64,000 nucleotides of DNA from Solirubrobacter ginsenosidimutans (GTDB taxonomy: Bacteria; Actinomycetota; Thermoleophilia; Solirubrobacterales; Solirubrobacteraceae). The notes below the pieces were generated by a model. That model was not told the origin of the DNA and did not search any database. It saw only the letters and a list, made by a program, of their open reading frames with translations. The position numbers and the translations under genes were made by a program. The DNA lies in contig NZ_JAPDOD010000033.1 of the NCBI RefSeq assembly GCF_027587205.1, forward strand, positions 43,765 to 107,764. Direction: 5' to 3'. This document shows positions 15,329 to 60,713 of this stretch, in pieces (within the stretch, counting starts at the first letter, position 1; every line of letters begins with the position of its first letter).

Positions 15329-15436
15329 GGGCAGCAATGCTGGCACTTCGAGCCGGCTGCCCCCGCCAGACTCGTGGACGGAGGCGCCGACATCCAAAAG
15401 TGGGGCTCGACTACCGTGCGCGCGACTTATTGTTAA

Positions 15437-20968: not shown

Positions 20969-21183
20969 CGTGCCTGGCTGAGGGACGAACACGGCACGCG
21001 GGGCAGGCGGATGGATCGCGTGGCCATCAGCGTTTGTCGTCTCCTCCACTGAATTGCTCACGCGATTTCCACTATCCACTAGACATGGCTTCATGAGTGG
21101 TGTTACGTTTTGTCTGGCGGTCCAACGTGCAGGAGGGGCGCGGTCGCCGGTTCGCATCAGCGAGTTGGGGAGGAGAGGACGCA

Positions 21184-27490: not shown

Positions 27491-28093
27491 TTAGGCGGCC
27501 GCGGTCGTCGCGGTCGGGGCGGACCAGGCCTTGTCGAGCTCAGCAGGGAGGCGCTTGGCCTCGAAGGCCAGCACGACGCGCGAGACGCCGATGGCGACGG
27601 CCCAGATACCGGCGACGGTGATGATGGCGGCGAGGGTGGCGCCGGGGTTGGCGAGGGCGAGCACGCCCAGCGGGATCTCGAGCAGCCCGATGAGCAGCAG
27701 CATCCACCAGTACGGCAACACGGGCCGGACGGCGAACGCGCCGCTGATGGCGATCGTGCCGGAGACGACAAGCCAGGCGCCGAGGAAGATCGCGACGGCG
27801 ACGATGCCGGGCTCGGGCCAGGCGATGATGGCGATGCCGGTGGCGATCGAGATCAGCCCGGAGATGACGTTGGCGCGTCGCACGCGCGGGTCGATGCCGG
27901 ACGCGAGCGCGCGCGAGGCGCCTTCGAAGATGAACAGGGCGCCGATGAAGGTGGCGAGCGAGTTCACGGTCCAATCGATGCTGAAGACGAGCACGCCGGC
28001 GACGATCAGCGCGAGGCCGTTGAGCAGCAACAGCCACCAGGCCTTGGCGACCCTGGTCGCGGCGTCGCGGGTGAGTTGGTGTGCGAGCGTCAT
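27491..28093 (-). CDS. HdeD/DUF308-family membrane protein
   Basis: This 200-residue protein has six predicted hydrophobic segments in three pairs: AWWLLLLNGLALIVAGVLVF, SLATFIGALFIFEGAS, VISGLISIATGIAIIAW, VAVAIFLGAWLVVSG, YWWMLLLIGLLEIPLGVLAL and ITVAGIWAVAIGVSRVVLAF. This pattern and length match the HdeD family, linked in E. coli to acid resistance. ACGGAGGT lies upstream and its ATG overlaps the sigma-factor stop by four bases, so it is the last gene of a coupled LysR-sigma-HdeD operon. Confidence 0.88.
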   Translation of the reverse strand: MTLAHQLTRDAATRVAKAWWLLLLNGLALIVAGVLVFSIDWTVNSLATFIGALFIFEGASRALASGIDPRVRRANVISGLISIATGIAIIAWPEPGIVAVAIFLGAWLVVSGTIAISGAFAVRPVLPYWWMLLLIGLLEIPLGVLALANPGATLAAIITVAGIWAVAIGVSRVVLAFEAKRLPAELDKAWSAPTATTAAA

Positions 28094-28872
28094 GGTGTAC
28101 CTCCGTGGGGGATGGGTGGACTGATGAGGGTCCGCAGCCAGTGCAGACCTTGTTGTTCGAGTTGGCGGCTGCGTTGCTCGCCGACGCCGAGCCAGTCCGC
28201 GATCTGCTCGTGGCTCTGGGCGTCGTCGCGGCCGATTCCGAAGCGGCGCAGCAGGACTTCGCGGTGGCGTGCGGGCAGCAGGTTCAGCAGCGAGCACAGC
28301 CGGCGGCGGGTCTCGTCTCGCTCGGTCTGCTGCCACGCCGGGTCGCCGTCAGGGTCGCCGATCAGCTCGGCGAGCGGGGTGCCGTCCTCGCCGAGCGGCT
28401 CGTCGAGCGAGGCGGTCACATGCGGTGCGTCGCGCAGCGCGTGCACCGTGCGCGGACTGAGGCCGGCATGCGCGGCGATCGCGTCGTCGCTGGCGACCAC
28501 GTCGAGCCGGCGCAGTTCGTCCTCAGCGCGCAGAACGGCCGCGAGCTGCTGCCGGGCGGCGGGCGGAATGCGGATCGCCTGGGCGTCGGTGAGGGCGTCC
28601 ATGATCGAGCGCCGGATCCACCAGGCGGCATAGGTCGAGAACCGCAGCCCGCGCCGGTGATCGAACTTCTCGGCGGCGCGGACGAGCCCGACCGCGCCTT
28701 CCTGTGTCAGATCCTCGAGCGGCACGCCGCGACCGCGGTAGCGTTGCGCCACGGCATAGACCAGCCGCAGGTTCGCGGTGATCAGCTCGTCTTTGGCGAC
28801 CAGGTCGCCGCGCTCGATCCGGCGTGCCAGGCGTACCTCGTCCGCCGCGGTGAGGAGTCGATCGCGTGTCAT
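28090..28872 (-). CDS. Sigma-70 family RNA polymerase sigma factor (RpoD-like, short)
   Basis: This sigma factor has 260 residues. Region 1.2/2 is DEVRLARRIERGDLVAKDEL, ITANLRLVYAVAQRY, DLTQEGAVGLVRAAEKFD and RFSTYAAWWIRRSIMDAL. Region 3 follows, and region 4 is LLNLLPARHREVLLRRFGIG and HEQIADWLGVGEQRSRQLE. It lacks region 1.1 and is closest in style to group 2/3 sigma factors rather than ECF. GGAGG stands before the ATG. The ATG overlaps the LysR stop, and its own stop overlaps the hdeD-like ATG, so the three proteins should be made together. No anti-sigma gene is adjacent. Confidence 0.9.
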   Translation of the reverse strand: MTRDRLLTAADEVRLARRIERGDLVAKDELITANLRLVYAVAQRYRGRGVPLEDLTQEGAVGLVRAAEKFDHRRGLRFSTYAAWWIRRSIMDALTDAQAIRIPPAARQQLAAVLRAEDELRRLDVVASDDAIAAHAGLSPRTVHALRDAPHVTASLDEPLGEDGTPLAELIGDPDGDPAWQQTERDETRRRLCSLLNLLPARHREVLLRRFGIGRDDAQSHEQIADWLGVGEQRSRQLEQQGLHWLRTLISPPIPHGGTP

Positions 28873-29974: not shown

Positions 29975-30070
29975 GGTGGCTCCTTCAGGTCAGGGACGGT
30001 GTGTGTCCACAGTGCGCCTCGGGCACGCGAATAGCGCCCGGGCCGACCCCTGGTCAGGACCCCCTGGTGG

Positions 30071-41722: not shown

Positions 41723-41747
41723 CCTAGGGAATTTCCCGGGCGCGAAC
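41723..41747 (+). promoter_or_regulatory. 25-bp conserved upstream element, copy 1 (GH78-A)
   Basis: The pattern is CCTAGGG-N5-C-N-CGGGCGCGAAC, ending 67 bases before the ATG of the GH78-A gene. It is identical at 19 of 25 positions to copies at 48538 and 50936, in the same orientation. In this copy the variable centre creates GGGAA-T-TTCCC. It is probably an operator or activator site. Confidence 0.75.
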
Positions 41748-41814
41748 GTAGCGCGACCGACCGTAAGGTTCGATTCTGTTCGATATCGGTCTGTTCGTTC
41801 AGTGAGGAGAGTGA

Positions 41815-44800
41815 ATGCTCATACGATCGATCACGGGACGTCGCTATTGGCGTCCAGCGGTCAAGGCAGCAGCGGTCACATCTGCGTGCGGGGTGCTGCT
41901 GGTCGCCGCCGGCAGCGCGCCCGCCGGGCCGGATGGCAGCGCAGTGGCGGTCCAGACGCTGCGCGTCAACACGATGGCCAATCCGATCGGCATCGGCGAC
42001 GCGACGCCGAACCTGAGTTGGAGGCTTTCAGGCGGGCGCCAGACCGCCTACGAGGTGCGGGTCGCGTCGTCCGCGGCACAGCTCGAGCAGCCGGACCTGT
42101 GGGACTCGGGCAAGGTGTCCTCGGGCGCCTCGTCCAACATCGCCTACGCGGGTGCCGCGCTCGCCTCGCGCAAGGCGGCGGTGTGGGACGTGCGCGTATG
42201 GGACGGATCCGGCGCCGCGAGTGACTGGAGCGAGCCGGCGACGTTCGACGTCGGCCTGCTCGCCAACCGCGACTGGTCTGCGAAGTGGATCGAGAACCCG
42301 GATTACACCTATGCGACCGGCGGCGTTCCGAACCCGCTTCCGATCTTCGCCAAGCCGTTCGACCTCTCCAAGCAGGTGACCAAGGCTCGGTTGTATATGA
42401 CCGGCCTCGGGCAGTACGCGGCGCAGCTCAACGGCAAGCCGGTCGGCGAGGCCGTGCTCGAGCCCGGGCAGACGTCGTACTTCGCCGAGGTCGACTACCG
42501 CACGTATGACGTCACGTCGCTGCTCAAGCAGGGCGGCAATCTCCTCGGCGTCGAGACCGGCAGCGGCGCCTATCAGCGCGTCATCACGGCGGGCCGGTAC
42601 TTCTTCCAGAACAACCCCGCGCCGGTCTACGGATCGCCCAAGGTGATCGCCGAGCTCGACCTCACCTACGCGGACGGCTCCAAGCAGACGATCGACAGCG
42701 ACTCGACGTGGCAGACCAAGCTCGGGCCGACGACCTTCTCCGCCTGGTGGGCGGGTGAGGATTACGACGCTCGTCGCCTGCCGACCGACTGGACGTCGGC
42801 GTCGGCGCTCAGCGGCTCCGGCTGGCGTGACGCCGGCCTCGTCACGCTCACGCCGACCACGACCCCGACGGACACGACGCCGCTGATCGCCGATCAGCGC
42901 CCGCCGGTGACCGTCGCCCGCGAGGCGCACCCGGTGGCGATCGCGCAGATCACGCGCGCCAACATCGCGACGACGCTCGCCGCGCCCGTGCGTCCGTCGG
43001 ACACGAACGTCAAGCTGGCGTCGATCAGCGGGCTCAACCCCGGCGACTCGATGAGCATCGACGGCGAGGCCCGCACCGTCGCGGGCGTCGGGACCGCGGC
43101 GGGCGCCGCCACGACGCTGTTCTCGCCGGCCGCCGCAGGTGACATCAACGTCAAGGTCTCGAGCATCACCGGCTTCGTGGTCGGCCAGCAGGCCCTGGTC
43201 GAGAACGAGCTCGCGACCATCACCGCGATCGGCACCGCCGGCACCGCGACGACCCTGTCGGCGGCGGCCGCCGCCGGAGCGACGAACCTGCGCGTCGCCT
43301 CGGTCACCAATCTCGCGGTCGGCGACAGCCTGACGGTGGACGGCGAGACGGTCACGATCACGTCGGTGGGTACGTCCGGCGCCAACGGCACCGGCGTCGG
43401 CGTCACCCCGGCACTCGCCGGGGCGCACGCGAGCGGCGCGGCCGTGCGCGACCAGAGCAAGGCGGGCACGGGCATCACGCTCTCGACCGCCTTGGGCGCC
43501 GCGCACGCGATCGGCACCGCCGCGCGCGGCGCGGGCACGGGCGTCACCGTCTCCGCGGGCTTCACCACCGCGCATGCGAACGGCGCCGCGGTGACGACCA
43601 CTCCCGGACCGACGTACGTGCTTGACTTCGGGAAGAACCTCTCGGGGCTTCCGAAGGTCAGCGCCTCCGGGCCGGCTGGGAGCACGGTCACGATGATCCC
43701 CGCCGAGGTCGCCAACGCCGACGGCACGATCAACATCAGCTCCACCAGCGCGTCGGCGACGAACCAGATCCTCTACCGCTACACGTTCGCCGGCAGCGGC
43801 ACGGAGACCTGGCACTCGCAGTTCACCTACAACGGCTTCCGGTACCTGCAGGTGACCGGCCTCGCGTCGGCGCCGACGGCCGACACCGTCACCGTGCAGG
43901 TCACGCACGCCTCCAACCGCGAGAGCGCGACGTTCGACAGCTCGAGCGACCTGCTCGATCAGATCTACACGATCTCCAAGCAGGCGCTGGAGAACAACAT
44001 GCAGTCGGTGCTGACGGACTGCCCGGATCGCGAGAAGGGTCCGTACACCGGCGACAACCTGCACAACATCGACACCGAGCTGACGCTGTTCGACATGCAG
44101 GCCTACGAGGGCCAGCTCGTCAACAACATGCGCACCGCGCAGCGCCCGGTGCCGGCGAACGGCCAGTTCCCCGGCATGATCGCCAACATCGCCCCGGAGT
44201 ACCACTTCGTCCCGCCGAGCTCCGGTGGCACATGGTTCCTCGACGAGCCCAACTGGGGCGGCGCCGTGATCATGATCCCGTGGAACCTCTACCAGGTCTA
44301 CGGCGACACCGACGCCATGCGCGTCAACTACGACGCGATGGTCAAGTGGCTCGACTGGGAGGCCACTACCAAGGCCGCCAACAACGGCAACATCCGCGGT
44401 CTCGGCGACTGGTCGGCTGCGCAGAGCACCACCGCGCAGCCGGTCATCGACTACGGCTACTACCGTGGCGCGAGCGCGATGGCCAAGATCGCCGCATTGC
44501 TCGGAAAGACGGCCGACGCCGACAAGTACTCGCAGCTGGCGACCAGCCTCGCGGCTGAGTACAACACGAAGTACCTGCACACCGACGCCGGCGGGAACGC
44601 CTGGTACGCGAACAACACCGAGGCGTCCAACGCCGTCGCGCTCGACGCCGGCCTGGTCCCGGCGCAATATCACGACGCGGTGGTCAACAGCCTCGTCGCC
44701 GCCGTGCACGCGTATGGCGATCGCATCGGCACCGGCTCGGTCGCGCTCGGTCCGCTGTTCCGGACGCTGCACGCCGCGGGCCGCGACGACGTCATCTACA

Positions 44801-45696
44801 CGATGGTCGCCAACCCCGCCTCGCCGGGCTACGCGTTCCTGGTCAACAGCGGCAAGACCACCCTGACCGAGAGCCTCAGCGGCACCGGCTCCCAGGACCA
44901 TCACTTCCTGGGCGAGGTCGCCTCCTGGTTCGTGCACGGCCTCGCCGGCATCCAGCAGGCTCCCGACTCGATCGGTTACCGCAGCCTCGAGATCAAGCCG
45001 GCGCTCGTCGGCGACCTCAACCACGCGGAAGGTACGTACGCCACGCCGCAAGGCGTCGCGTCGTCGAGCTGGACGCGTGCGGCGAACGGGCTGCTCAGCA
45101 CGCTCGCGGTGACCGTGCCCGGGAACACCACGGCACGCGTCTACGTGCCGACGTCGTCGCCGACCGAGACGTTCGTGGCCAATGGCAGCGCGGCCGTGAC
45201 CTATGTCGGCTACCAGAACGGCGCGCAGGTGTACGACGTCGCGGCCGGCAGCACGACGTTCGTGCACGGCACGAGCGTCGACACCGGAGTGGGCGGGACC
45301 GTCCCGGCCACGCTCGCGCTGTCGCTGGGCACACCGGCCGCGTTCGGGGCCTTCACTCCGGGCATCGGCCGGTCCTACGACGCGGCGACGACCGCGACCG
45401 TCACCTCGACCGCGGGCGATGCCACGCTCTCGGTCAGCGATCCGTCCTCGACGGCGACCGGCCGGCTGGTCAACGGCACGTTTGCTCTGAGTGAGCCGCT
45501 GCAGGCACGGGCGAACGCGGGTGCGTTCGCGCCGTTGCCGAGCAACGGACCGCTCACGTTGTTGACCTACGCGGGGCCGGTGAGCAACGACGCCGTCGCG
45601 ATCGGGTTCCGCCAGCACATCGGGTCGAGCCAGGCGCTCAGGACGGGCGCCTACAGCAAGACCTTGACGTTCACGTTGTCGACCACGACGCCCTGA
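41815..45696 (+). CDS. Secreted GH78 alpha-L-rhamnosidase (GH78-A) with inserted repeat module and TTTP module
   Basis: The protein has 1293 residues; GAGGAG precedes ATG 41815. A signal peptide ends near SAPAGPDG. Beta-rich domains follow (LRVNTMANPIGIGDATPNLS, YEVRVASS, SAKWIENPD), then a bacterial rhamnosidase jelly roll. Residues ~383-598 are a tandem-repeat insert between VAIAQIT and TYVLDFGKN. The (alpha/alpha)6 catalytic domain has DCPDREKGPYTGD with Asp735, Glu740 and Asp747 in the known GH78 acid cluster, and a TESLSGTGSQDHHF segment with the probable base Glu. The last 134 residues are the shared TTTP module. It should release rhamnose from plant or microbial glycans outside the cell. 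A conserved 25-bp element lies upstream and a strong hairpin follows. Confidence 0.93.
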   Translation: MLIRSITGRRYWRPAVKAAAVTSACGVLLVAAGSAPAGPDGSAVAVQTLRVNTMANPIGIGDATPNLSWRLSGGRQTAYEVRVASSAAQLEQPDLWDSGKVSSGASSNIAYAGAALASRKAAVWDVRVWDGSGAASDWSEPATFDVGLLANRDWSAKWIENPDYTYATGGVPNPLPIFAKPFDLSKQVTKARLYMTGLGQYAAQLNGKPVGEAVLEPGQTSYFAEVDYRTYDVTSLLKQGGNLLGVETGSGAYQRVITAGRYFFQNNPAPVYGSPKVIAELDLTYADGSKQTIDSDSTWQTKLGPTTFSAWWAGEDYDARRLPTDWTSASALSGSGWRDAGLVTLTPTTTPTDTTPLIADQRPPVTVAREAHPVAIAQITRANIATTLAAPVRPSDTNVKLASISGLNPGDSMSIDGEARTVAGVGTAAGAATTLFSPAAAGDINVKVSSITGFVVGQQALVENELATITAIGTAGTATTLSAAAAAGATNLRVASVTNLAVGDSLTVDGETVTITSVGTSGANGTGVGVTPALAGAHASGAAVRDQSKAGTGITLSTALGAAHAIGTAARGAGTGVTVSAGFTTAHANGAAVTTTPGPTYVLDFGKNLSGLPKVSASGPAGSTVTMIPAEVANADGTINISSTSASATNQILYRYTFAGSGTETWHSQFTYNGFRYLQVTGLASAPTADTVTVQVTHASNRESATFDSSSDLLDQIYTISKQALENNMQSVLTDCPDREKGPYTGDNLHNIDTELTLFDMQAYEGQLVNNMRTAQRPVPANGQFPGMIANIAPEYHFVPPSSGGTWFLDEPNWGGAVIMIPWNLYQVYGDTDAMRVNYDAMVKWLDWEATTKAANNGNIRGLGDWSAAQSTTAQPVIDYGYYRGASAMAKIAALLGKTADADKYSQLATSLAAEYNTKYLHTDAGGNAWYANNTEASNAVALDAGLVPAQYHDAVVNSLVAAVHAYGDRIGTGSVALGPLFRTLHAAGRDDVIYTMVANPASPGYAFLVNSGKTTLTESLSGTGSQDHHFLGEVASWFVHGLAGIQQAPDSIGYRSLEIKPALVGDLNHAEGTYATPQGVASSSWTRAANGLLSTLAVTVPGNTTARVYVPTSSPTETFVANGSAAVTYVGYQNGAQVYDVAAGSTTFVHGTSVDTGVGGTVPATLALSLGTPAAFGAFTPGIGRSYDAATTATVTSTAGDATLSVSDPSSTATGRLVNGTFALSEPLQARANAGAFAPLPSNGPLTLLTYAGPVSNDAVAIGFRQHIGSSQALRTGAYSKTLTFTLSTTTP
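42961..43610 (+). repeat. Tandem-repeat insert in GH78-A
   Basis: Three ~46-residue units follow one consensus: (T)NVKVASVTGLAVGDSLxVDG, ExVTITxVGTxGxxTTL, SAAAAAGA. Three shorter units of the form GTGxTxSxxLxxAHAxGAAV follow. The same units occur in GH78-B at 51478-52100, at a different position of the host enzyme. Confidence 0.85.
45292..45693 (+). repeat. TTTP-terminal module, copy 2 (in GH78-A)
   Basis: These 134 codons run from GGTVPATLALSLG to FTLSTTTP and the stop. They match the C-terminal modules of the xylanase (22546) and GH78-B (53821), with nearly identical blocks (STAGDATLSV, LRTGAYSKTLTFTLSTTTP). Confidence 0.85.
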
Positions 45697-45707
45697 ATCC
45701 AGTGCAT

Positions 45708-45733
45708 GCGCCGGCCGCTGTCGCGGCCGGCGC
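45708..45733 (+). terminator. Terminator hairpin after GH78-A
   Basis: Perfect arms GCGCCGGCCGC and GCGGCCGGCGC around loop TGTC begin 11 bases after the GH78-A stop. It separates GH78-A from the LuxR/AAA gene and argues against the GTG at 45702 as that gene's start. Confidence 0.8.
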
Positions 45734-45773
45734 TTCGCACCGGCCGACTGAAAGGGCTGGTAAGAGTGGCTTG

Positions 45774-48500
45774 GTGGGATACGCCGGGACATCACCGTTC
45801 GTGGATCGCGAAGCCGAATTCGGTGCGTTGCAAGCCGCCTTCGATCAGGTCATCAAGGGCCAGCCGCGGACCCTGGTGATCGAGGGCGAAGCCGGGATCG
45901 GCAAGACCACGCTCGTCGAGCAGTTCCTCTCCCGGCTTGCCTCCGTCAGGCTGCTGCGCGCCAGCGGCGAGGAGTCAGAGGCGCACGTGCCGTTCGCGAT
46001 GGCAGACCAGCTTCTCCGTGACGCCGGCACCGCGAGCGACGCGCTGCTGACCGGACAGCACGTCCGCGTCGGGATGGAGCTGCTGGAGCTGATGGCGTCG
46101 ACCACCGGCGGCGCCGAAGCGGTCGTCTTCGTCGACGACGCGCATCTGGCCGATACCGAATCGCTGCGCGCGTTGCTGTTCGCGGCGCGCCGGCTTGCCG
46201 CGAGCCGCGTGCTGTTGCTCGTCGTCGTTCGCGGGAGCGCCGACGAGACGCTGCCCGAAGGCTGGCAGAAGCTCGCGACGGAGCCGTCCGGTGGAGTCTT
46301 GAGCGTCGGACGGCTCGACCCGGGCCAGATCGCGGCGCTGGGCGTGACGCTCGGCGTCGCCATGACGCCGGATGCCGCCCGCCGGCTCTGCGAGCACACG
46401 CGTGGCAATCCGCTGCACGCGCGAGCCGTGCTGCAGGAGCTTCCCGCCGAGGGGACGTGGCAGCACGAGGATCGGCCACTCCCGGTCCCCAAGTCCTATG
46501 CGCAGCTGATCCTGCGACAACTCGATCGGTGCGCGCCCGACGTGGTCGGCCTGATCCAGGCCGCTTCGGTCCTCGGGGTGCGTGCGCCGCTGCATCCGGT
46601 GAACGAGCTCGCGCGGCTGCAAGACCCGCTCGAGACGCTCGACGATGCCCTCGAAAGTCGGCTCATGCGTCTCGACCAGGGGGCCGGCGGCGCGTTCGTC
46701 GAGTTCTCGCATCCGCTGATCCGCGCCGCCATCTACGACGCGATCCCACAGGCGCGCCGCGCCGCGCTCAACACCGCGGCCGCGGAACTGCTGGAAGATG
46801 CTGGGGCAGTGATGCGGCATCGCGTGGAGGCAGCGACGGTCGCCGACGAGACGTTGCTGGCGGAGCTGGAAACCCAGGCCCACGAGCAGATGTCGCGAGG
46901 GGCCTGGGCCGGCGCGGTGTCCAACCTGCTCGCCGCGAGCCGTCTGCACCCACGGCCCACGGATCGCGACCGCCTCGCGCTGGAGGCGATTGAAGCGATG
47001 ATGTACTCCGGCGACGGTGCCGCGGCCCGCCGGCTCGCGGAGCGGGTCAGCTTCGCCGATGGGCCGCGCCGCGACAGCGTCCTGGCCTACCTGGCGATCT
47101 TCGCGGGAGACCTCGAGGCGGCGCAACGGCTGCTGGCGCTTGCGTGGGAGCGGCGAGAGCTCGCCGATGACGATCGGCTCTCGGCGACGATCGCGCAACG
47201 CAGCGCGTTTCTCGCGACATCGCGACTCCGAGGCCACGAGGCGCTCGAGTGGGTCGCCCGCGCACACGCGCTCGCGCCGGGTGACGCGGCGACGGCGCGG
47301 CTGGTGGCGCCGTCTGAGGCCCTTGGCTCCAGCTTCATCGGCCGCCGCGAAGACGCGTACGCCGCGCTCGATCGCTGGCTTGAGCCGCGGCCCGGCGCCG
47401 GCTTCGTGCTCCTGGCCCTCAAGGGGTTCCTGGTGCTGGCCGACGGAAACGTCAACGCGGCCCGCTCGGCCTTCGCGACGTCCGCTCGCGAAAGCCTCGC
47501 CGAAGGTCTGCTCGTGGTCGCTGCCCTCTCGCTCTCGGGTCTGACCTATGTCGAGTACGTGGCGGGAGAGTGGGACCACGCGGTGGTCTCGTCGGAACGG
47601 GCCATCTCGCTCGCGATCGAATCCGAGGACCGCTGGGTCACCGGTCAAGCGCACTGGAGGGCCTCGTATGTCGCCACCGCGCGGGGTGATTGGCCGGTCG
47701 CGGAGGCTCACGTGCGCGCGATCCACGACCAGGCGCCGAGCTTTGAACGCCATCGCGCCGCCGCGGCGATCGCTGCGGCTGGGTTCGCGGCGGCTCGCGA
47801 GCGCCCGGCCGAGGTTCTCGACGCGCTGGCTCCTCTGGAGCAGATGCGGTCTCACGAGGGCGTCGACGATCCCGCGTTCCTGCCGTGGCAGCATCTGAAG
47901 GCGCACGCGCTCGTCGATGGCGGCCAGTTCGACGAGGCTGAGCGGTTTCTCGCCGAGGCGGCCGGCATCGCGTCGTCGCGCGCCAACCCGCTGCTGGGGG
48001 CGCGACTGGCGCACGCGCGCGCCAAGCTCGAGTTCTCCCGCCGCCGGCTCGGGCAGTCGATCGAGGCTTTCCAGGAGGCCCGTGCGCTGATCGAGCCGCT
48101 CGCCATGCCGTATGAGCAGGCGCTGATCGAGCTCTCGCACGGTCAGGTGTTGAGACGCACGGGGGAGCGACGGGCCGCCGCGGCGATGTTGCTCGCGGCG
48201 CACGGGCGGCTGAACGAGCTCAAGGCCCTGCCGGCGCTCCAGCGCTGCGCGAACGAGCTCGCGGCGTGCGGCCTGTCACCGTCGGCGCGCAAGACGCGCG
48301 ACTACACCGCGCTGACCCCCCAGGAGGTCGCGGTCACGAGGCTGGTCGTGTCGGGGATGAGCAATCGCGAGGTCTCAGTCGAGCTGATGCTGAGCACGAA
48401 GACCGTCGAGTTCCATTTGAGCAACGTCTACACGAAGCTCGGCGTGCGCTCGCGCTCGGAGCTCCGGGCTCGCGCCCGGGCGAGCGAGCTCACGCTCTGA
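45774..48500 (+). CDS. LuxR/AAA (LAL-type) transcriptional regulator
   Basis: The protein has 908 residues from GTG 45774, with AAGAG seven bases upstream; an earlier in-frame GTG lies before the terminator hairpin. FVDREAEFGALQAAF, Walker A GEAGIGKTTLVEQF, Walker B AVVFVDDAHLADTES, helical repeats and a LuxR HTH (LTPQEVAVTRLVVSGMSNRE, VSVELMLSTKTVEFHLSNVY) are visible. It is the most diverged of the four LAL proteins here. It lies inside the rhamnoside block, between GH78-A and the DeoR gene, but lacks the 25-bp element. It could be a second regulator of the locus. Confidence 0.9.
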   Translation: MGYAGTSPFVDREAEFGALQAAFDQVIKGQPRTLVIEGEAGIGKTTLVEQFLSRLASVRLLRASGEESEAHVPFAMADQLLRDAGTASDALLTGQHVRVGMELLELMASTTGGAEAVVFVDDAHLADTESLRALLFAARRLAASRVLLLVVVRGSADETLPEGWQKLATEPSGGVLSVGRLDPGQIAALGVTLGVAMTPDAARRLCEHTRGNPLHARAVLQELPAEGTWQHEDRPLPVPKSYAQLILRQLDRCAPDVVGLIQAASVLGVRAPLHPVNELARLQDPLETLDDALESRLMRLDQGAGGAFVEFSHPLIRAAIYDAIPQARRAALNTAAAELLEDAGAVMRHRVEAATVADETLLAELETQAHEQMSRGAWAGAVSNLLAASRLHPRPTDRDRLALEAIEAMMYSGDGAAARRLAERVSFADGPRRDSVLAYLAIFAGDLEAAQRLLALAWERRELADDDRLSATIAQRSAFLATSRLRGHEALEWVARAHALAPGDAATARLVAPSEALGSSFIGRREDAYAALDRWLEPRPGAGFVLLALKGFLVLADGNVNAARSAFATSARESLAEGLLVVAALSLSGLTYVEYVAGEWDHAVVSSERAISLAIESEDRWVTGQAHWRASYVATARGDWPVAEAHVRAIHDQAPSFERHRAAAAIAAAGFAAARERPAEVLDALAPLEQMRSHEGVDDPAFLPWQHLKAHALVDGGQFDEAERFLAEAAGIASSRANPLLGARLAHARAKLEFSRRRLGQSIEAFQEARALIEPLAMPYEQALIELSHGQVLRRTGERRAAAAMLLAAHGRLNELKALPALQRCANELAACGLSPSARKTRDYTALTPQEVAVTRLVVSGMSNREVSVELMLSTKTVEFHLSNVYTKLGVRSRSELRARARASELTL

Positions 48501-48537
48501 GCGAGCGGTCGACCGCACGCCGGCGGCGCAGCGGCAG

Positions 48538-48562
48538 CCTAGGGGTTCTCCCGGGCGCGAAC
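48538..48562 (+). promoter_or_regulatory. 25-bp conserved upstream element, copy 2 (DeoR gene)
   Basis: The CCTAGGG-N5-C-N-CGGGCGCGAAC pattern ends 129 bases before the DeoR ATG, in the intergenic region after the LuxR/AAA gene. Presence of the element before the regulator gene itself fits autoregulation. Confidence 0.75.
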
Positions 48563-48691
48563 GGGCAGTCGAGGCGGTACAACCCGGCGTGCGCCTTCGC
48601 GGTCGCCTGGTCCCGTTTCATCGGCCCACCCGCGTTGAAACGATCAGAGAGTTCATGAACGCAACGGAAAAGCGTCTGTCGAGAGCGAACG

Positions 48692-49531
48692 ATGGTTGAT
48701 GAATTCGGGCCCCTGCAGCTGAGCGAGGCGCGACGGGAAGCGATCCGGAAGCTGTTGATGGAGTCGGGTGCGGTGACGACGCGGGAGTTGCAAGCGCGCT
48801 TCGGCGTCTCCCCGATCACGGTGCGGCGAGATCTGGAAGCCCTCGAGCAGCGTGGCACCGCGCGCCGCACCCATGGGGGCGCCGTCCTGCCGTCCGTCGC
48901 GATACCCGACGGCTCCTTCACACAGCGAATCGAGCGCGCGACCGACGCAAAGCTCCGGTTGGCGGAAGCGGCGTGCAACATGCTGTCCGGGGGTGAGACG
49001 GTGTTCCTGGACTCGTCGACCACCGCCTACTTCATCGCTCGCCGGATCACTCAAGGTTCGCTCAGCCTGAGGGTGATCACCAATAGCGGGCCGGTGATGC
49101 AGCTGCTGGCATCTTCTGAAGAGTCCAATGTCGATCTCTACGCGATCGGCGGAATGCTGCGACGGCTCACGGGCTCGTACGTCGGACCGTCATCGGTGCG
49201 AATGATCCGCGATCTCTGGGCGGACAGGGTGTTCTTAGGGGTGACGGGCGTGACGGCCGGCGGGATGCTCACCGACACGGATCAACTGGAGGCCTCGGTC
49301 AAGCTCGCGATGCTCGAGCAGGCAAGGGAGTCCGTGCTGCTCGTCGACGCGTCGAAGTTCGCTAAGTATGGGCGACAGGCGATCGCCTCTCTGGACGCGG
49401 TCTCGCTCGTCTTGGCGGACGGGCTCGGGGATGAGGAGCTCGATCGGCTCCGTCTCAAGGGCGTGGCGGTGCAGCTCGTCGATACGCCGGCGTCGCGCAG
49501 ATTCAAGGCCAGGACGACCACCGACGATTGA
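48692..49531 (+). CDS. DeoR/GlpR-family transcriptional regulator
   Basis: The protein has 279 residues. The N-terminal winged helix is LSEARREAIRKLLMESGAVT, TRELQARFGVSPITVRRDLE, ALEQRGTARRTHGGAV. The DeoR sensor domain follows (ETVFLDSSTTAYFIAR, VITNSGPVMQLL, YAIGGMLRRLTGSYVGPSSV, LLVDASKFAKYGRQAI), which usually binds a sugar phosphate. It is followed by an MFS transporter gene 111 bases away and surrounded by two GH78 genes. It is the natural candidate for the protein that binds the 25-bp elements, probably responding to a rhamnose-derived phosphate. Confidence 0.92.
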   Translation: MVDEFGPLQLSEARREAIRKLLMESGAVTTRELQARFGVSPITVRRDLEALEQRGTARRTHGGAVLPSVAIPDGSFTQRIERATDAKLRLAEAACNMLSGGETVFLDSSTTAYFIARRITQGSLSLRVITNSGPVMQLLASSEESNVDLYAIGGMLRRLTGSYVGPSSVRMIRDLWADRVFLGVTGVTAGGMLTDTDQLEASVKLAMLEQARESVLLVDASKFAKYGRQAIASLDAVSLVLADGLGDEELDRLRLKGVAVQLVDTPASRRFKARTTTDD

Positions 49532-49585
49532 CAGCTTCCGACCGCCGTTGGTAGATTCTGGGCGATTGTGCCATGTATGGTCTGG

Positions 49586-49603
49586 TAGCGACCATTATCG
49601 CTA
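49586..49603. promoter_or_regulatory. Inverted repeat before the MFS gene
   Basis: TAGCGA-CCATTA-TCGCTA is a perfect six-base inverted repeat with a six-base centre, 40 bases before the MFS GTG. It sits in the 111-base gap after the DeoR gene and could be an operator for the transporter gene. Confidence 0.4.
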
Positions 49604-49642
49604 TCGACGGCGCGGTCGAGTTCCAACGTCCGGAGGAGAGTC

Positions 49643-50914
49643 GTGACGGCAGGTCGGGGCGTTTGGCGCAACACCATCCTCGCTGCGCTCGCGAGCTACA
49701 TCGACGCGGGCTCGATCGTCGCGGGCGCGGCGGGACTGGCGCTGTGGGCGGATGAGTTCGGTCTCGGGTCGAGCACGATCGGCCTGATCGGGGCGTTCAG
49801 CTCGAACGCGATCTCGGCCGGCGCCGGAGCGCTGGCCGGCGGCTGGCTGTGCGACCGGCTCGGGCGCCGACGGGTCTATCAGTGGGACTTGCTGCTCTAC
49901 GCGTTCGGGCTGCTCTGGATCATCTTCGCCACGACGCCGTGGATGCTGATCACCGGCTACGTGTTCGCCGGTCTCGCCGTCGGCGCGGATGTCCCCGCCT
50001 CCTGGACCTTGATCGCCGAGACCGCGCCCGCCCGCAAGCGCGGGCGCTACGGCGGGACCGCACAACTGTTGTGGAGCCTTGGCCCGATGGTGGTGTTGCT
50101 GATGGCGCTGGCGCTCTCCGGGCTCGGCGTTCTCGGGATCCGGATCATCTTCGCCCACCTGCTCATCGTGTCGCTCGTGCTGTGGGCACTGCGCCGCCGG
50201 ATGCACGAGTCGCCGATGTGGGAGGACGCCAAGGAGCGAGCGACGACGAGGCTCGCGGACGTCCGGGTGCTGCTCAGCCGCTCCTACCTGCCGCCGCTGC
50301 TGTTCCTGGCGGGGATGTACGGCTTCTGGAACCTGAAAGCCGGCACGAGCGGCTTCTTCCTGCCCTACATCCTGCGGACCGCGGGAAACCAGAGCCAGGC
50401 CGCGAGCGTCGCGTTTCAGGCGGTCGGCTTTGTCCTCGGGAGCCTTGGGATCGTGTTCGTGTTCATGCGCCTCGTGGACCGGACGAATCAGCGTCGGATG
50501 TTGCTGACCAGCGTCGGTTTGCAGATTGCCGCGATGCTGCTGTTCGCGCTGTTCCCGCTCACCACGCTGGTCGCGATCCTGTACGTGCTGGTCGGTGGTA
50601 TCGGTGGCGGCTTCGGGCCGCAGGCGTTCTTCCAGCTCTGGAGCGCCGAGCTCTTCCCGACCACGCTGCGCGCGTCCGCGCTCGGCCTGATGTTCGCCGT
50701 CGTCCGGATCGCGCTCGGGATCTGGAGCCTGTACGTGCCCGCGATCACCGCGGCGGGCTTTCACACCCTCGCATGGCTGCTGACCGGGTTCCTGATCGTC
50801 AGCGGCGTCCTCGGTTTCGCCTTCGCACCGTCCAACCCCGGCCGCTCGCTCGCCGAGCTCCATCCCGAGCCCGCGAACAGTGTGGAGCCGTCAGTCCTCG
50901 TAGCCGCCCGGTAG
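49643..50914 (+). CDS. MFS transporter (sugar-porter-like)
   Basis: The protein has 423 residues from GTG 49643, with GGAGGAGAG upstream. Twelve hydrophobic segments are visible. The loop 2-3 motif GGWLCDRLGRRRVYQWDLLL (G-x3-D-R-x-GRR) is the MFS signature. DVPASWTLIAETAPARKRGR (PxxxExxPxxxRG-like) and AELFPTTLRASALG are typical sugar-porter motifs. Situated after the DeoR gene and between two rhamnosidase genes, it is probably the importer of released rhamnose or rhamnosides. Confidence 0.9.
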   Translation: MTAGRGVWRNTILAALASYIDAGSIVAGAAGLALWADEFGLGSSTIGLIGAFSSNAISAGAGALAGGWLCDRLGRRRVYQWDLLLYAFGLLWIIFATTPWMLITGYVFAGLAVGADVPASWTLIAETAPARKRGRYGGTAQLLWSLGPMVVLLMALALSGLGVLGIRIIFAHLLIVSLVLWALRRRMHESPMWEDAKERATTRLADVRVLLSRSYLPPLLFLAGMYGFWNLKAGTSGFFLPYILRTAGNQSQAASVAFQAVGFVLGSLGIVFVFMRLVDRTNQRRMLLTSVGLQIAAMLLFALFPLTTLVAILYVLVGGIGGGFGPQAFFQLWSAELFPTTLRASALGLMFAVVRIALGIWSLYVPAITAAGFHTLAWLLTGFLIVSGVLGFAFAPSNPGRSLAELHPEPANSVEPSVLVAAR

Positions 50915-50935
50915 CGGTCGCACCAAGGGTCACGT

Positions 50936-50960
50936 CCTAGGGAAAAGCTCGGGCGCGAAC
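50936..50960 (+). promoter_or_regulatory. 25-bp conserved upstream element, copy 3 (GH78-B)
   Basis: The same CCTAGGG-N5-C-N-CGGGCGCGAAC pattern ends 103 bases before the GTG of GH78-B. It lies after the MFS stop, so GH78-B has its own promoter. Confidence 0.75.
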
Positions 50961-51063
50961 TTCGGCATGGCTCTGTAAAACCGCGTTTGGGGGCTGTTGT
51001 GATCGAGTGGGATTCAGTTTCCGTCGAGACGACCGCAGCCGAACACAAGGTGAGGAGAGTTCT

Positions 51064-54000
51064 GTGAAGGCTTCATCAGCGGTCGCCTGTGTGGCGGCCG
51101 GCCTGGCGACGCTTGTGGGCGCCGGATCGGCCGCGGCGCAGGGGCCGGTTGAGTTGTCGCGTTCGCCGATCCCGGAGAACGCCGCGTGGAAGAGCTACGT
51201 CATCGGCTCGGGGAGCGCGGACGTGGCTCCGGTGCGCGTCGCTTCCGTCTCTGGGTCCGTGACCAACGCTGACGGACTGGTCGATCCATCCAAGGGTCCG
51301 GCCACGCTGACTTTCACCTCGGGCGGTCAGCCGCCGGTGATCATTCTCGACTACGGTCGCGAGGTCGGCGGTCTGCCGTTCTTCACCTCGAGCGCGGTCA
51401 GTCCCGCCGGCGGCGGAACGTCTGTAACGCTGCGCAGCGCCTACAGCGAAACGCGTCAGTTCCTCTACTCGGCAGGCAACACGACACTGACCTTGCCGGC
51501 GGCGGTGGGGGACACGAACCTCAAGGTCGGCGGCGTCGGCAACTTCGTCGTCGGCGACACGCTGCGGATCGGCTCCGACACGGTGACGATCACGGCGGTC
51601 GGGACGCAAGCGCGTTCGACCACGCTGTTCGCCGCGGCGGCGGCCGGCGCGACCAACGTGAAGGTCGCGGCGACGACCGGGTTGGCCGCCGGCGACGCAC
51701 TCCGCGTCGACGGTGAGACCGTGACGATCGCGAATGTCGGCACTCAGGGCCGCAACACGACCCTGTCGGCCGCGGTCGCGGCGGGCGCGACGAACATCAA
51801 GGTGGCCAGCGTCACCGGGATGGCGGCGGGCGATCCGATCGTGGTCGACGGCGAGCCGGGCACGGTCCAGACGGTCGGCACCGCCGGCGCGAACGGCACC
51901 GGCGTCACGCTGGCCGCGCCGCTGACCACCGCTCACGCCTCGGGCGCCGCGGTCCAGGATCTCGGCACCGGGGTCACGTTCTCTCCCGCCTTGGCGGCTG
52001 CGCATGCGAGTGGCGCCCCGGTCATCGGGCCGGGCACCGGCATCACGATCTCCGCGCCGCTGACCGCCGCGCAGCCCGTCGGGACCGCCGTTCGCTCCTC
52101 GCCGGGGGCACTCACCGGGGATGCCAACGGCTTCAATGGCGTCGGCGTGGCCGCGAGCCGCGCTGAGAACTGGGTGTTCTCCGCGCCCGGCACCCTCGGC
52201 AACGCGGCCAACGCGATTCAGGGCGGCGAGCGCTTCCAGGCACTCACGCTGACCACGCCCGGCAGCATCCAGCTGAGCCAGGTCGGCATCCACGTCCGCT
52301 ACCCGAACGCCGGCTCCGCCGACTACGTGGGCCATTTCCTGTCCAGCGACGAGAAGCTCAACAAGATCTGGTACCAGGGCGCCTACACCAACGACACGAA
52401 CATGGTGCCGATCGGCGCGGTGCCGGGCCAGACGATCCCCGTGATCCTCGACGGCGCCAAGCGCGACCGGCGGCCGTGGTCGGGTGACCTCGATCTCCAA
52501 GGCAAGACGATGTTCTCGAGTCTCGGCTTCGGCGCGAAGGGGTCGGACTACATCAAGGGCTCAATTGCGCTCTTCGGCGCCAGCCAGGCCGCAAACGGGT
52601 CGATCTTCGGCCATATCCAGGACTGGACGCGCAATCCCCCCGCGGGCGGCTTCTACTCGCTGAGCTACTCGATGTACTACGTGCTCAACCTGGCCTCCTA
52701 TTACCTGTACTCGGGCGATCTGGACTTCGTGCGCTCGCAGTACGCGATCGTGCAGCGCCAGATGGCGTACAACCGAGCGCTGGTGGACCCCTCCACCGGC
52801 CTGCTGATCTCCAACAGCAGCGAGCGTGACTGGGACTTCTACGACGGCGGCAAGCCGGGTGCGGTGACGGCGTACAACGCGATCTACTACAAGGCCCTGA
52901 CCGACGCCGCGTACATGGCCAGTGAGCTGGGCAACACGGCCGATGCCGCCACCTACTCCGCGCAGGCAGCTGACCTCAAACCGCGGATCAACGCCGCGCT
53001 GTTCGACCCGGCTCGCGGTGTCTACAGGCTCGCGGACCGCGACAATGCCAATCACCCCGGCAACTCCGTGCCACAGGACGCCAACTCGGAAGCGATCTCG
53101 TTCGGGATCGCTCCGGAGAGCGCGCACGCCGGCATTCTCAGCTGGCTGCGCACCAACCTGTGGGAGCCGTTCGGTCCGCAGCCGTATTCCAGGGATGCGA
53201 ACTACTCCACGGTGATCAGCCCGTTCGTCACCGGCAAGGAGCTCGACGCCCGCTTCCACGCCGGCGACACACAGGGCGCGCTGGACCTCACCCACCTGCT
53301 GTGGGATCAGATGACCAACGAGAGCGGCCCGTACTACACGGCCACCATGTGGGAGAAGCTCAATCAGGACGGCACCGACGTCGATGCCAACGCGAGTCTG
53401 TCGCACGGCTGGGCCACAGCTCCGACACCGGCGCTGAGCCACTACGTGCTCGGCGTCCAGCCCGTGTCGGCGGGCTTCAAGACGTGGACGGTCGCGCCAC
53501 AGACCGGCGACCTGAAATGGGCCCAGGGCAGCGTGCCGACGCCGCAGGGAGTCATCGTCTCTCGCTGGTCGCGCGGAGAGGGCGACCGCTCGTTCGCCAT
53601 CACCGTGTCGGCTCCCGCGGGCACCTCCGGATCGGTTCGGGTGCCGCTGCTCGGCCGCTCACGGACGATCGCGATGGATGGCGCCGTCGTGTGGCAGGAC
53701 GGCGCCCCTGCCCCGGGGATCACCGCGACGCAGCGTGGCGGCGCGGTCGAGTTCAGCGGCGTGACGGGATCGCACACGTTCGCCTTCGGGACCGTGACGA
53801 CCGGCGCTGATGGCACGGCCGGCGGTTCGGTGCCGGCCACGCTGTCGCTGAGCCTGGGCACCCCAGCCGCGTTCGGCCCCTTCACCCCGGGCGTGGCAAG
53901 GGACTACCTCGCCGCGACGACGGCGAACGTGGTCTCGACCGCGGGTGACGCGACACTCAGCGTCGCCGATCCCAGCAGCACCGCGACCGGCCATCTGGTC

Positions 54001-54243
54001 AACGGCGCGTTCAGCCTGCCGCAGCCGCTACAGGCTCGGGCGCGCAACGCCGCCAACACCGGCACCGCCTACAACAACGTCGGCTCCTCCGCGAGCCCGT
54101 TGAACCTGCTGACCTACAGCACGCCGGTTTCCAACGACGCCGTCGCGCTGGAGTTCAAGCAGAGCATCGCGGCCAACGACGCGTTGCGCACTGGCACTTA
54201 CGCCAAGACGTTGACGTTCACGCTGTCGACGACGACGCCGTAG
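51064..54243 (+). CDS. Secreted GH78-type glycosidase (GH78-B) with inserted repeat module and TTTP module
   Basis: The protein has 1059 residues from GTG 51064; GAGGAGAG lies eight bases upstream. A signal peptide (AVACVAAGLATLVGAGSAAA-Q) starts it. VIILDYGREVGGLPFF is a rhamnosidase jelly-roll strand. A tandem-repeat insert occupies residues ~139-346. The catalytic domain follows: FLSSDEKLNKIWYQGAYT, VILDGAKRDRRPWSGDL (acid cluster in the DGAKRDR form of GH78) and NSSERDWDFYDGGKPGAV, then a C-terminal beta domain. The last 140 residues are the TTTP module. It probably cleaves alpha-L-rhamnosides, perhaps with a different linkage preference from GH78-A. Confidence 0.88.
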   Translation: MKASSAVACVAAGLATLVGAGSAAAQGPVELSRSPIPENAAWKSYVIGSGSADVAPVRVASVSGSVTNADGLVDPSKGPATLTFTSGGQPPVIILDYGREVGGLPFFTSSAVSPAGGGTSVTLRSAYSETRQFLYSAGNTTLTLPAAVGDTNLKVGGVGNFVVGDTLRIGSDTVTITAVGTQARSTTLFAAAAAGATNVKVAATTGLAAGDALRVDGETVTIANVGTQGRNTTLSAAVAAGATNIKVASVTGMAAGDPIVVDGEPGTVQTVGTAGANGTGVTLAAPLTTAHASGAAVQDLGTGVTFSPALAAAHASGAPVIGPGTGITISAPLTAAQPVGTAVRSSPGALTGDANGFNGVGVAASRAENWVFSAPGTLGNAANAIQGGERFQALTLTTPGSIQLSQVGIHVRYPNAGSADYVGHFLSSDEKLNKIWYQGAYTNDTNMVPIGAVPGQTIPVILDGAKRDRRPWSGDLDLQGKTMFSSLGFGAKGSDYIKGSIALFGASQAANGSIFGHIQDWTRNPPAGGFYSLSYSMYYVLNLASYYLYSGDLDFVRSQYAIVQRQMAYNRALVDPSTGLLISNSSERDWDFYDGGKPGAVTAYNAIYYKALTDAAYMASELGNTADAATYSAQAADLKPRINAALFDPARGVYRLADRDNANHPGNSVPQDANSEAISFGIAPESAHAGILSWLRTNLWEPFGPQPYSRDANYSTVISPFVTGKELDARFHAGDTQGALDLTHLLWDQMTNESGPYYTATMWEKLNQDGTDVDANASLSHGWATAPTPALSHYVLGVQPVSAGFKTWTVAPQTGDLKWAQGSVPTPQGVIVSRWSRGEGDRSFAITVSAPAGTSGSVRVPLLGRSRTIAMDGAVVWQDGAPAPGITATQRGGAVEFSGVTGSHTFAFGTVTTGADGTAGGSVPATLSLSLGTPAAFGPFTPGVARDYLAATTANVVSTAGDATLSVADPSSTATGHLVNGAFSLPQPLQARARNAANTGTAYNNVGSSASPLNLLTYSTPVSNDAVALEFKQSIAANDALRTGTYAKTLTFTLSTTTP
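51478..52100 (+). repeat. Tandem-repeat insert in GH78-B
   Basis: Three ~46-residue units (NLKVGGVGNFVVGD, NVKVAATTGLAAGD, NIKVASVTGMAAGD starts) are followed by three GTGxTxSxxLxxAHAxGAxV-type units. Order and length match the insert in GH78-A. Here it sits after YSETRQFLYSAG, a different place in the host protein. Confidence 0.85.
53821..54240 (+). repeat. TTTP-terminal module, copy 3 (in GH78-B)
   Basis: These 140 codons run from GGSVPATLSLSLG to FTLSTTTP and the stop. It matches copies 1 and 2, with one longer loop (NAANTGTAYNNVGSSASP). Confidence 0.85.
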
Positions 54244-58547: not shown

Positions 58548-60713
58548 TTGTCGGTTTCCCCTAAGAGTCGCTGGCGCGGCTGGACCACAGGGGTCCTGCT
58601 CGCCCTTGCGGTTCCACTCGCGACGGGCGGTTCGATCGCCCAAGCGACGCCGACGGCCCAGGCACGCCTCGCTTCTGTGGCGATGAAGACTCCGGCCAGC
58701 ACGGTCGAAGCGATCGTGCAGTTCAAGCCCGGTCTGTCCGAGCGCAAGGCTCGCGCGCTCGTCCGTTCCCACCACGGTCGCGTCACGGACCGGCTCCCGA
58801 GCCTCAACGGCTTCGCCGTCAAGCTCGCGGCCCGTGACGCGCGGGCGCTGCGGCGGAGCAAGCACGTCGTCAACGTCACGCTCAACACCCGCGTGCGCCC
58901 CACCGGCGTCGACGGCGGCAGCCTCGCGACGACCTACCCGAAGACGGTCGGCGCGGATCAGTTGTGGGCCGCCGGCATCACCGGCAAGGGCGTCGGTGTC
59001 GCGGTCATCGACTCCGGCGTCGGCGGCGACCTCGCGGACTTCAAGAACGCCGACGGCAGCTCGCGCATCACGGCCAACGTGATCGCCAACTCGGACGCGA
59101 CCCGCCCGGGCGACGACGTCGGCCACGGCACCCACGTCGCCGGCATCATCGCCGGCAACTCGTTCAATCGCGACCCTGCCGACCCCGCGCACGGCGCCTA
59201 CATCGGCATCGCTCCCGAGGCCAACCTGATCACGGTCAAGACCGCCGACGACGCCGGTGACTCGACCGTGCTCGACGTCATCACGGCGCTGCAGTTCGTC
59301 GTCGAGCACAAGGACGACCTCAACATCCGCGTCGTCAACCTCTCGGTGGCCTCGGACACCCCCGGCTCCTACCTCGACGACCCGCTCGACGCGGCCGTCG
59401 AGTTCGCCTGGCACTCCGGCATCGTCGTCGTCGCCGCCGCGGGCAACCGCGGGGACGCGGGCGACGCGGTCCAGTACGCCCCGGGCAACGACCCGTACGT
59501 GATCTCCGTCGGCGCCACGGACGAGGGCAACACGCTCGACCCGACCGACGACACGACCGCGACGTTCTCGAGCCGCGGCACCACCCAGGACGGCTTCGCG
59601 AAGCCGGACGTGTCCGCTCCCGGCGCGCGGATCGTCGCGCCGCTGGCCCTGGGCAGCGCGTTTGCGGCCCTGTGCCCGGCGTGTGTCGTCGGCGGCGAGT
59701 ACCTGCGCATCGGCGGCACGTCGATGTCGGCCCCGGTCGTCTCCGGCGCCGCGGCACTCCTGCTGCAGGCTCGCCCCGAGCTCAACCCCGACGAGGTCAA
59801 GGCGCTCCTGGTCCAGAACCCCAGCGTGGCGTCCGGTGGCGTCGACCTCGGCGCGGCCGACGGCTTCGCGGTCCTGGCGGGCGCGACGGTGACCAACACC
59901 GGCCCGTCGACGATCGACGGTGGCCTCGGCGTCAGCCCGGGCACGGCGGTGACCGGCCTCGTCGCCGGGACCGTCAGCGGGGCGACACACGCAGCCGACG
60001 CCGCCTCGCTGAAGGCGAAGGCCGACCTCGCGACCGCGTACGTCGCGGTCGCCAACCGCGCCCCGAGCACGCCGGTCCCCGCGGACCTCGGCGGGCGCAC
60101 GCTCACACCGGGCGTCTACGGGTCCGCGTCCTCACTCGGGTTGACGGGAACCGTCACGCTCGACGCCGGCGGCGATCCGAACGCCGTCTTCGTCTTCCAG
60201 GCGGGGTCGACGCTGATCACCGCCTCGGGTGCCCGCGTGCGCCTGGCCAACGGGGCACAGCCCTGCAACGTGTTCTGGCAGGTCGGAAGCTCCGCGACGC
60301 TCGGGAGCGGCACCGTCTTCGCCGGCAACATCCTCGCGCTGGCGTCGATCACGATGAACGCCGGCGTCGAGCTGACCGGGCGAGCGCTCGCTCGCACCGC
60401 CGCGGTGACGATGATCGATGACACGGTCACCGCCCCGCACTGCACGGGCGAGCTCAACGTCGCCCGCGCCCTGCCGGCGGAACCAGGCGGCGGCGCCAAC
60501 GCGGGCCTGAGCCCGAACCACTCCGTCGAGCAGGCGCTCGTCGAGGCCGGGCTCGACCCCACACGCGCGAACTGGAGCAAGTCGACGTGGAGCAAGTCGA
60601 CCTGGTCGAAGTCGACGTGGAGCAAATCGACCTGGTCGAAGTCCACCTGGTCCTCGGAAGACGAGCTCGCCGCCCCGTGGGCGCGTTCGACCTGGACGGC
60701 GCTCAACCCGTAG
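58548..60713 (+). CDS. Secreted S8 subtilase with inserted DUF3494 (ice-binding-type) domain and WSKST tail
   Basis: The protein has 721 residues from TTG 58548, with GGAGG 10 bases upstream; no better start was found. A signal peptide (GVLLALAVPLATGGSIAQAT) is followed by an inhibitor-I9-like propeptide (EAIVQFKPGLSERKARALVR). The S8 domain has Asp155 (VIDSGVGGD), His193 (GHGTHVAG) and Ser392 (GGTSMSAPVVSG). Residues ~439-631 are a DUF3494 domain (FAVLAGATVTNTGPSTIDGG, TLTPGVYGSASSLGLTGT, NVFWQVGSSATLGSGTVFAG). Then come ANAGLSPNHSVEQALVEAGL and five WSKST repeats. In related actinobacterial subtilases the body runs directly into that tail, so DUF3494 looks inserted. Confidence 0.92.
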   Translation: MSVSPKSRWRGWTTGVLLALAVPLATGGSIAQATPTAQARLASVAMKTPASTVEAIVQFKPGLSERKARALVRSHHGRVTDRLPSLNGFAVKLAARDARALRRSKHVVNVTLNTRVRPTGVDGGSLATTYPKTVGADQLWAAGITGKGVGVAVIDSGVGGDLADFKNADGSSRITANVIANSDATRPGDDVGHGTHVAGIIAGNSFNRDPADPAHGAYIGIAPEANLITVKTADDAGDSTVLDVITALQFVVEHKDDLNIRVVNLSVASDTPGSYLDDPLDAAVEFAWHSGIVVVAAAGNRGDAGDAVQYAPGNDPYVISVGATDEGNTLDPTDDTTATFSSRGTTQDGFAKPDVSAPGARIVAPLALGSAFAALCPACVVGGEYLRIGGTSMSAPVVSGAAALLLQARPELNPDEVKALLVQNPSVASGGVDLGAADGFAVLAGATVTNTGPSTIDGGLGVSPGTAVTGLVAGTVSGATHAADAASLKAKADLATAYVAVANRAPSTPVPADLGGRTLTPGVYGSASSLGLTGTVTLDAGGDPNAVFVFQAGSTLITASGARVRLANGAQPCNVFWQVGSSATLGSGTVFAGNILALASITMNAGVELTGRALARTAAVTMIDDTVTAPHCTGELNVARALPAEPGGGANAGLSPNHSVEQALVEAGLDPTRANWSKSTWSKSTWSKSTWSKSTWSKSTWSSEDELAAPWARSTWTALNP

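Follow-up and report, generated by a model that had tools for sequence, protein, structure and literature searches.

A 25-bp element stands before three transcription units of a rhamnosidase gene cluster in a stretch of 64,000 nucleotides of the Solirubrobacter ginsenosidimutans genome (contig NZ_JAPDOD010000033.1, positions 43,765 to 107,764 of the forward strand; hereafter the window). The element is real and is conserved in related soil bacteria. Judged from its sequence and surroundings, it is probably a class II activator box, local to this one cluster, of the LAL regulator that the cluster itself encodes. This LAL, with a MalT-like ATPase and a LuxR-type helix-turn-helix (HTH), would bind two hexamers, CTAGGG-N5-CCCSGG, spaced by about one turn of the helix and directly upstream of the poor -35 sequence CGCGAAC. 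It would recruit RNA polymerase to promoters whose -10 sequence, starting with TA, follows 15-16 nt on, as in class II activation. The inducer would probably be a rhamnose-containing sugar, in whose presence GH78A, DeoR and GH78B would be switched on jointly, and LAL too if it is read through from GH78A.

The element and its conservation

As shown in Table 1, the pattern CCTAGGG-N5-C-N-CGGGCGCGAAC occurs in the window in three exact copies, all in the same orientation and identical at 19 of 25 positions. All three fall in gaps separating predicted genes, and their 3' ends lie 67, 129 and 103 bases before the starts of GH78A, DeoR and the likely GTG start codon of GH78B, respectively. A scan allowing up to three mismatches returned these three sites only, and 100 dinucleotide shuffles of the window (G+C content 70.5%) gave a mean of 0.11 sites and a maximum of one. 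The next best sites agree at 14 of the 19 fixed positions. The number, coordinates, orientation, identity and intergenic placement of the copies given in the initial annotation were all reproduced in this way, and so was its statement that the window holds no fourth good copy. A reading of the element as an RNA leader found no support in an Rfam scan of the window, which gave no family at gathering scores.

Table 1. Copies of the element, putative -10 sequences, cluster genes and related boxes. Coordinates are those of the window unless a locus is named.
Feature	Coordinates	Strand	Remark
Element copy 1, C CTAGGG AATTT CCCGGG CGCGAAC	41723..41747	+	before GH78A
Putative -10, TAAGGT	41764..41769	+	16 nt past copy 1
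GH78A, alpha-L-rhamnosidase	41815..45696	+	PF17389, PF08531, PF05592, PF17390
LAL, MalT-like LuxR regulator	45702..48500	+	AAA_16 and C-terminal GerE HTH; proposed binder
Element copy 2, C CTAGGG GTTCT CCCGGG CGCGAAC	48538..48562	+	before DeoR
Putative -10, TACAAC	48578..48583	+	15 nt past copy 2
DeoR-family regulator	48692..49531	+	PF08220, PF00455; rival binder
MFS transporter	49643..50914	+
Element copy 3, C CTAGGG AAAAG CTCGGG CGCGAAC	50936..50960	+	before GH78B
Putative -10, TAAAAC	50976..50981	+	15 nt past copy 3
GH78B, rhamnosidase-like enzyme	51064..54243	+	PF17389, PF17390
Fourth core site, CCAGGGGTCGGCCCGGG	30037-30053	-	flanked by the end of LAL 30071-32836 and, about 60 nt on, a possible GTG start
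Second box class, CCAGGG-A(C/G)TT(A/C/T)-CCCGGGCGCGA	L112, L155, L158, L159: around 1501-1523		before SDR, glyoxalase-like and LAL genes
Palindromes with CTAGGG ahead of distant LAL homologs	L092: 3568-3583; L095: 5834 onward

Orthologs of LAL were found in five genomes of one order, G880, G1051, G1052, G1054 and G1055, with identities of 56-60% in the genome searches and of 54.7-58.6% by BLAST at the loci. The window and each of these five relatives encode LAL together with its proposed targets, and GH78 and DeoR genes share its cluster in all five. G880 and G1051 carry the same locus and were counted as one observation, which gives four distinct loci. The relatives' genomes seem rich in LAL-type regulators, with some 140-220 first-look candidates for the LAL query; the searches scored two to three candidates per genome, and orthologs may be missed. 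The hunt for LAL in a phylum sample of 396 genomes gave a best identity of 37%, that in the class of G010 gave 35-38% in 12 of 296 genomes, and G880 was reached through the class of G102. A search for GH78B in the class of G337 found nothing in 66 genomes at E<=1e-20. GH78A had matches in nine of 36 genomes, and the neighbourhoods were inspected for G102 and G123. Among the 120 public-protein relatives of LAL listed, the two with an organism name are from Solirubrobacter.

In G880, G1051 and G1052 the two GH78 genes point away from each other, and GH78B is followed by DeoR and LAL. G1054 has the order GH78B-DeoR-LAL, and its GH78B is 82.6% identical to that of the window. In G1055, GH78A is divergent from DeoR-LAL, and a copy of the element has DeoR as the gene next downstream. 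Promoter copies agreeing at 15-18 of the 19 fixed positions were found at all these loci, two each in G880, G1051 and G1055, where the paired copies stand back to back, and one each in G1052 and G1054.

We searched for CTAGGGNNNNNCCCSGGCGCGAA with up to one mismatch in 232 genomes of the order, the relatives of the window, with the reversed pattern as control. There were 18 matches in 14 genomes, against 12 for the reversed pattern in the full set of 232. Half of the 18 lie in the five genomes with a LAL ortholog (reversed control there, none). Eight of these nine are at the cluster, and the ninth, on C125 of G1052, belongs to the second class of boxes described below. The other 227 genomes hold nine single matches, eight overlapping predicted open reading frames (ORFs) and one (L100) not. 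The four exact matches, one each in G880, G1051, G1054 and G1055, are all at the cluster. Up to two mismatches in G1051, G1052, G1054 and G1055 gave 16 matches, six at the locus and ten elsewhere, against nine for the reversed control. Several loci also have weak matches, at 15-16 of 19 positions, within ORFs or at them, for example one of 16 in a ROK-family gene (L067, L085). In the relatives the element is unscattered and marks one locus; a scatter without relation to glycoside genes, which the initial annotation had named as the finding that would speak against it, was not seen there.

The exact 19-base pattern was also sought in all GTDB contigs, where it matched twice. One match lies between response regulator and histidine kinase genes in Actinomadura, and the other, in a Thermomicrobiales metagenome-assembled genome, lies 85 nt ahead of an ORF that matches no Pfam family. 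Since neither genome was enriched over the reversed control at up to three mismatches (18 vs 16 in Actinomadura and 6 vs 12 in the Thermomicrobiales genome), both matches were taken as chance.

Promoter geometry and the proposed role of LAL

The geometry of the element was compared in nine copies from the window and the relatives, leaving out those of G1051, which are identical to the copies of G880. TA stands 15 or 16 nt past the element in all nine, against a window-wide rate of 0.017; the copies are partly related by descent. CGCGAAC therefore falls at the place of a -35 sequence, with CTAGGG-N5-CCCSGG just upstream. Assuming that transcription starts about 7 nt past the -10, the pair of hexamers ends 35-36 nt before the start site. 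No base varies at positions 2, 4-7, 13, 15 and 17-23, eight of the nine copies agree at positions 3 and 14, and the 5-nt centre is A/T-rich. An ungapped comparison of the window's GH78B promoter with that of G1054 gave 88% identity for the element, 22% for the 60 bp upstream and 48% for the 25 bp downstream. G1054 also conserves the GTG of 51064 along with its surrounding bases.

Like the box described for MalT of Actinoplanes sp. SE50/110 (a LAL, ACSP50_3915), TCATCC-N5-GGATGA over the -35, whose 3' end and the start site are 34.4 +/- 1.0 nt apart (PMC7567727), the element would consist of two hexamers with a 5-nt spacer in a putative -35 region, and it stands before several units of a regional cluster that encodes a LAL. 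Unlike that box, which as reported is a clear palindrome with other targets, it is an imperfect pair, CTAGGG/CCCSGG, in which the MalT core GGA(T/G)GA is not found. The binding region and regulation of Actinoplanes MalT have been studied with mutants, according to the same report, whereas the present element was studied by sequence analysis. It may work like a MalT box, but it is not one by sequence.

The site given for PAS-LuxR activators of the PimM type, CTVGGGAWWTCCCBAG at the -35 (PMC9774167), has the same CTAGGG left half, CCC in the right half, A/T-rich centre and putative -35 placement, and is read by a LuxR-type HTH, as proposed for the element. It differs in its length of 16 bp against a 17-bp core here, in a centre of 4 nt rather than 5 nt between GGG and CCC, in a right half CCCBAG instead of CCCSGG, and in that the proposed regulator here is a LAL. 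The sites described for MilO, direct repeats of 11 bp that occur three times and lie 142 bp before the start site (PMC11784345), and for the LAL SCO6993, a repressor that binds palindromes without a common sequence (PMC9628970), also differ from the element. Because its layout is that of known LuxR-family boxes, the term 'new operator class' used in the initial annotation is too strong. Among the open-access papers listed in the literature searches, none was on the motif, the cluster or the targets of the LAL regulators of these genomes.

The LAL orthologs share the helix KTVEFHL. In five paralogs the helix is a different one (KTVERHL, KTVENHL, KSVERYL, RTVEVHL), and these lack a nearby promoter copy with 15 or more of the 19 positions. 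CTAGGG palindromes stand upstream of distant LALs with KAxEYHL helices, CTAGGGAGACCCCTAG about 345 nt away at L092 and CTAGGGTCGTCCCTAA about 90 nt away at L095.

Several observations weigh against LAL as the reader of the element. A LAL with a KAIEYHL helix, L093, has no CTAGGG in its flank, and the GH78B promoter of G1052 retains the right half alone, TTCCCCGGCGCGAAC. The 5-nt hexamer spacing holds in nine of nine copies, but all were located with a fixed-spacing pattern, and the constant spacing and part of the invariance are thus given by construction; the distance to the TA is independent of that pattern. The hexamers fit an inverted repeat (3-5 of 6 positions) and a direct repeat of 11-bp period (3-5 of 6) about equally well. 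In the window scan the MFS unit has no copy of the element. DeoR is in the same cluster in five of five relatives, so that co-occurrence alone cannot separate LAL from DeoR. Finally, the helix of the window DeoR, SPITVRRDL, is two positions off the common SPMTARRDL, and other DeoRs may read another site. On account of this difference we weighed binding by LAL slightly lower and binding by DeoR slightly higher.

DeoR and other explanations

If the element were a DeoR operator, as the initial annotation proposed, DeoR would keep all three units, among them its own gene, repressed as long as neither rhamnose nor a product of it is present. We regard this as unlikely, although the gene content is in its favour: the DeoR gene belongs to the cluster, follows a copy in the window, comes first after a copy in G1055, and is present in all five relatives bearing the element. 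The motifs reported for DeoR-type RhaR in four lineages are imperfect direct repeats with a 10-11 bp period (PMC3870299), and CYNGGG recurs in the element with an 11-bp period. Like those operators as described, the element would have rhamnose-related targets, a DeoR in the cluster and a possible 11-bp direct repeat; unlike them, it seems not to track DeoR relatives in other genomes of the order, and its position suits an activator.

Several findings count against DeoR. A DeoR relative (E<=1e-40) is present in 26 of the 232 genomes, and none of the 21 without a LAL ortholog has the element with up to one mismatch; one of the 21, G1011, has a LAL relative of 37% identity. The closest DeoR (73%), which stands beside a counterpart of the MFS gene (69%) on C8 of G1054 in a region of peptidase and transporter genes, has no element within two mismatches. 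The window DeoR is nearer to this protein than to the DeoRs in the clusters (59-64%), which may mean that DeoR-MFS was exchanged while the box ahead of it stayed in place. The recognition helix SPMTARRDL is found in 25 of 31 aligned DeoR loci, among them L091, a cluster without the element, and DeoRs with a similar helix stand beside rhamnosidase or transporter genes without it.

What remains of the DeoR-controlled rhamnoside regulon is a shared cis element that marks the local set of rhamnosidase genes and is kept at the orthologous locus, while the DeoR operator is the less supported part. The annotation had omitted the LAL gene behind GH78A, and the shape of the element and its -35 placement fit LAL/LuxR sites, as does its absence from the 21 DeoR-bearing genomes.

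With LAL as the activator, DeoR would be a second layer of control acting at other sites, perhaps at GATCGAT-N-TCG-N-TC downstream of the GH78A -10. This block lies between the -10 and the GH78A start codon in G880, G1052 and G1055 (L067, L086, L087), and the window copy has one base changed. Another block, CGAACACA, lies between the -10 and the start codon of GH78B in the window, G880, G1052 and G1054. Both are perhaps candidate DeoR sites.

LAL and DeoR genes also accompany rhamnosidases of another family. L091 has a LAL paralog, a DeoR (58%) and a GH106 alpha-L-rhamnosidase, without the element, and in L090 a LAL paralog stands next to GH106.

It is less probable still that the whole 25-bp element and the -10 form a promoter of an alternative sigma factor, with the CTAGGG part bound by no regulator. 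The fixed distance to a -10-like TA, the invariant GGCGCGA and the presence of two sigma-factor genes in the window (19604-20968 and 28090-28872) are consistent with such a promoter, and an AAC ending, as in CGCGAAC, is typical of many ECF -35 boxes. However, the conserved CTAGGG ends 33-34 nt before the TA of the -10, beyond a -35 box, both sigma-factor genes are more than 12 kb away, and the copies in the relatives are confined to the LAL locus and not spread. That the repeat arose by chance or by recent copying and has no role in regulation, which could be argued from the mere two exact matches in the GTDB collection, is scarcely credible given the shuffles and the conservation at four distinct orthologous loci despite diverging flanks, and was largely refuted by the order-wide search.

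Neighbouring genes and related boxes

LAL is a 932-amino-acid frame that opens right after the stop codon of GH78A. Its real start is somewhere in 45702-45801, and the gap between the two genes is thus 5 to 104 nt; no element was found when this gap was scanned. The NCBIfam MalT model matches LAL in the HTH only. The MFS gene stands behind DeoR, and before it a match to the sigma-70 consensus was found at 49528-49557 (one against 0.4 expected in the scanned region).

There are four LAL regulators within the 64 kb, at 5512-8244 (-), 12578-15397 (-), 30071-32836 (-) and 45702-48500 (+), and the first three are only distant relatives of the last. GH78A, GH78B (51064-54243) and a GH10 protein (21097-22941) have in common a C-terminal stretch of about 130 amino acids that ends in TLSTTTP. 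That of the GH10 protein is 59-63% identical to those of GH78A and GH78B, and the stretch is present on several secreted-looking proteins of the relatives. The protein encoded at 58548-60713 combines a subtilase with an ice-binding-like domain in one chain and has STWSK repeats close to its end.

A looser 17-bp core, C[CT]AGGG-N5-C[CT]C[CG]GG, finds an additional, divergent fourth site in the window (Table 1), so that four are observed against a mean of 0.12 and a maximum of two in 200 shuffles. A second class of boxes, CCAGGG-A(C/G)TT(A/C/T)-CCCGGG-CGCGA, was found at four sites in G1052 and G1055 in a search with up to two mismatches. The two sites at SDR genes are inside the longest open frame, yet before the SDR domain. 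A relative of this class, CCAGGGGTCGGCCCGGGCGC, stands beside the window LAL at 30071-32836. This LAL and the one next to the L160 box have an identical helix stretch, SPRTVEWHLKKVF.

Few as they are, these sites suggest a general layout of LAL boxes. We tentatively propose that many LAL paralogs may each use a hexamer-N5-hexamer-CGCGA box near the -35, in which the second base of the hexamer and the 5-nt centre would set which LAL reads it. If this is true, the element is one word of a readable LAL code. If LAL is indeed the activator of the rhamnosidase cluster, one LAL gains a set of targets, the alpha-L-rhamnosidases, together with a box and its promoter geometry, and the obvious, probably wrong assignment of the element to DeoR is corrected.

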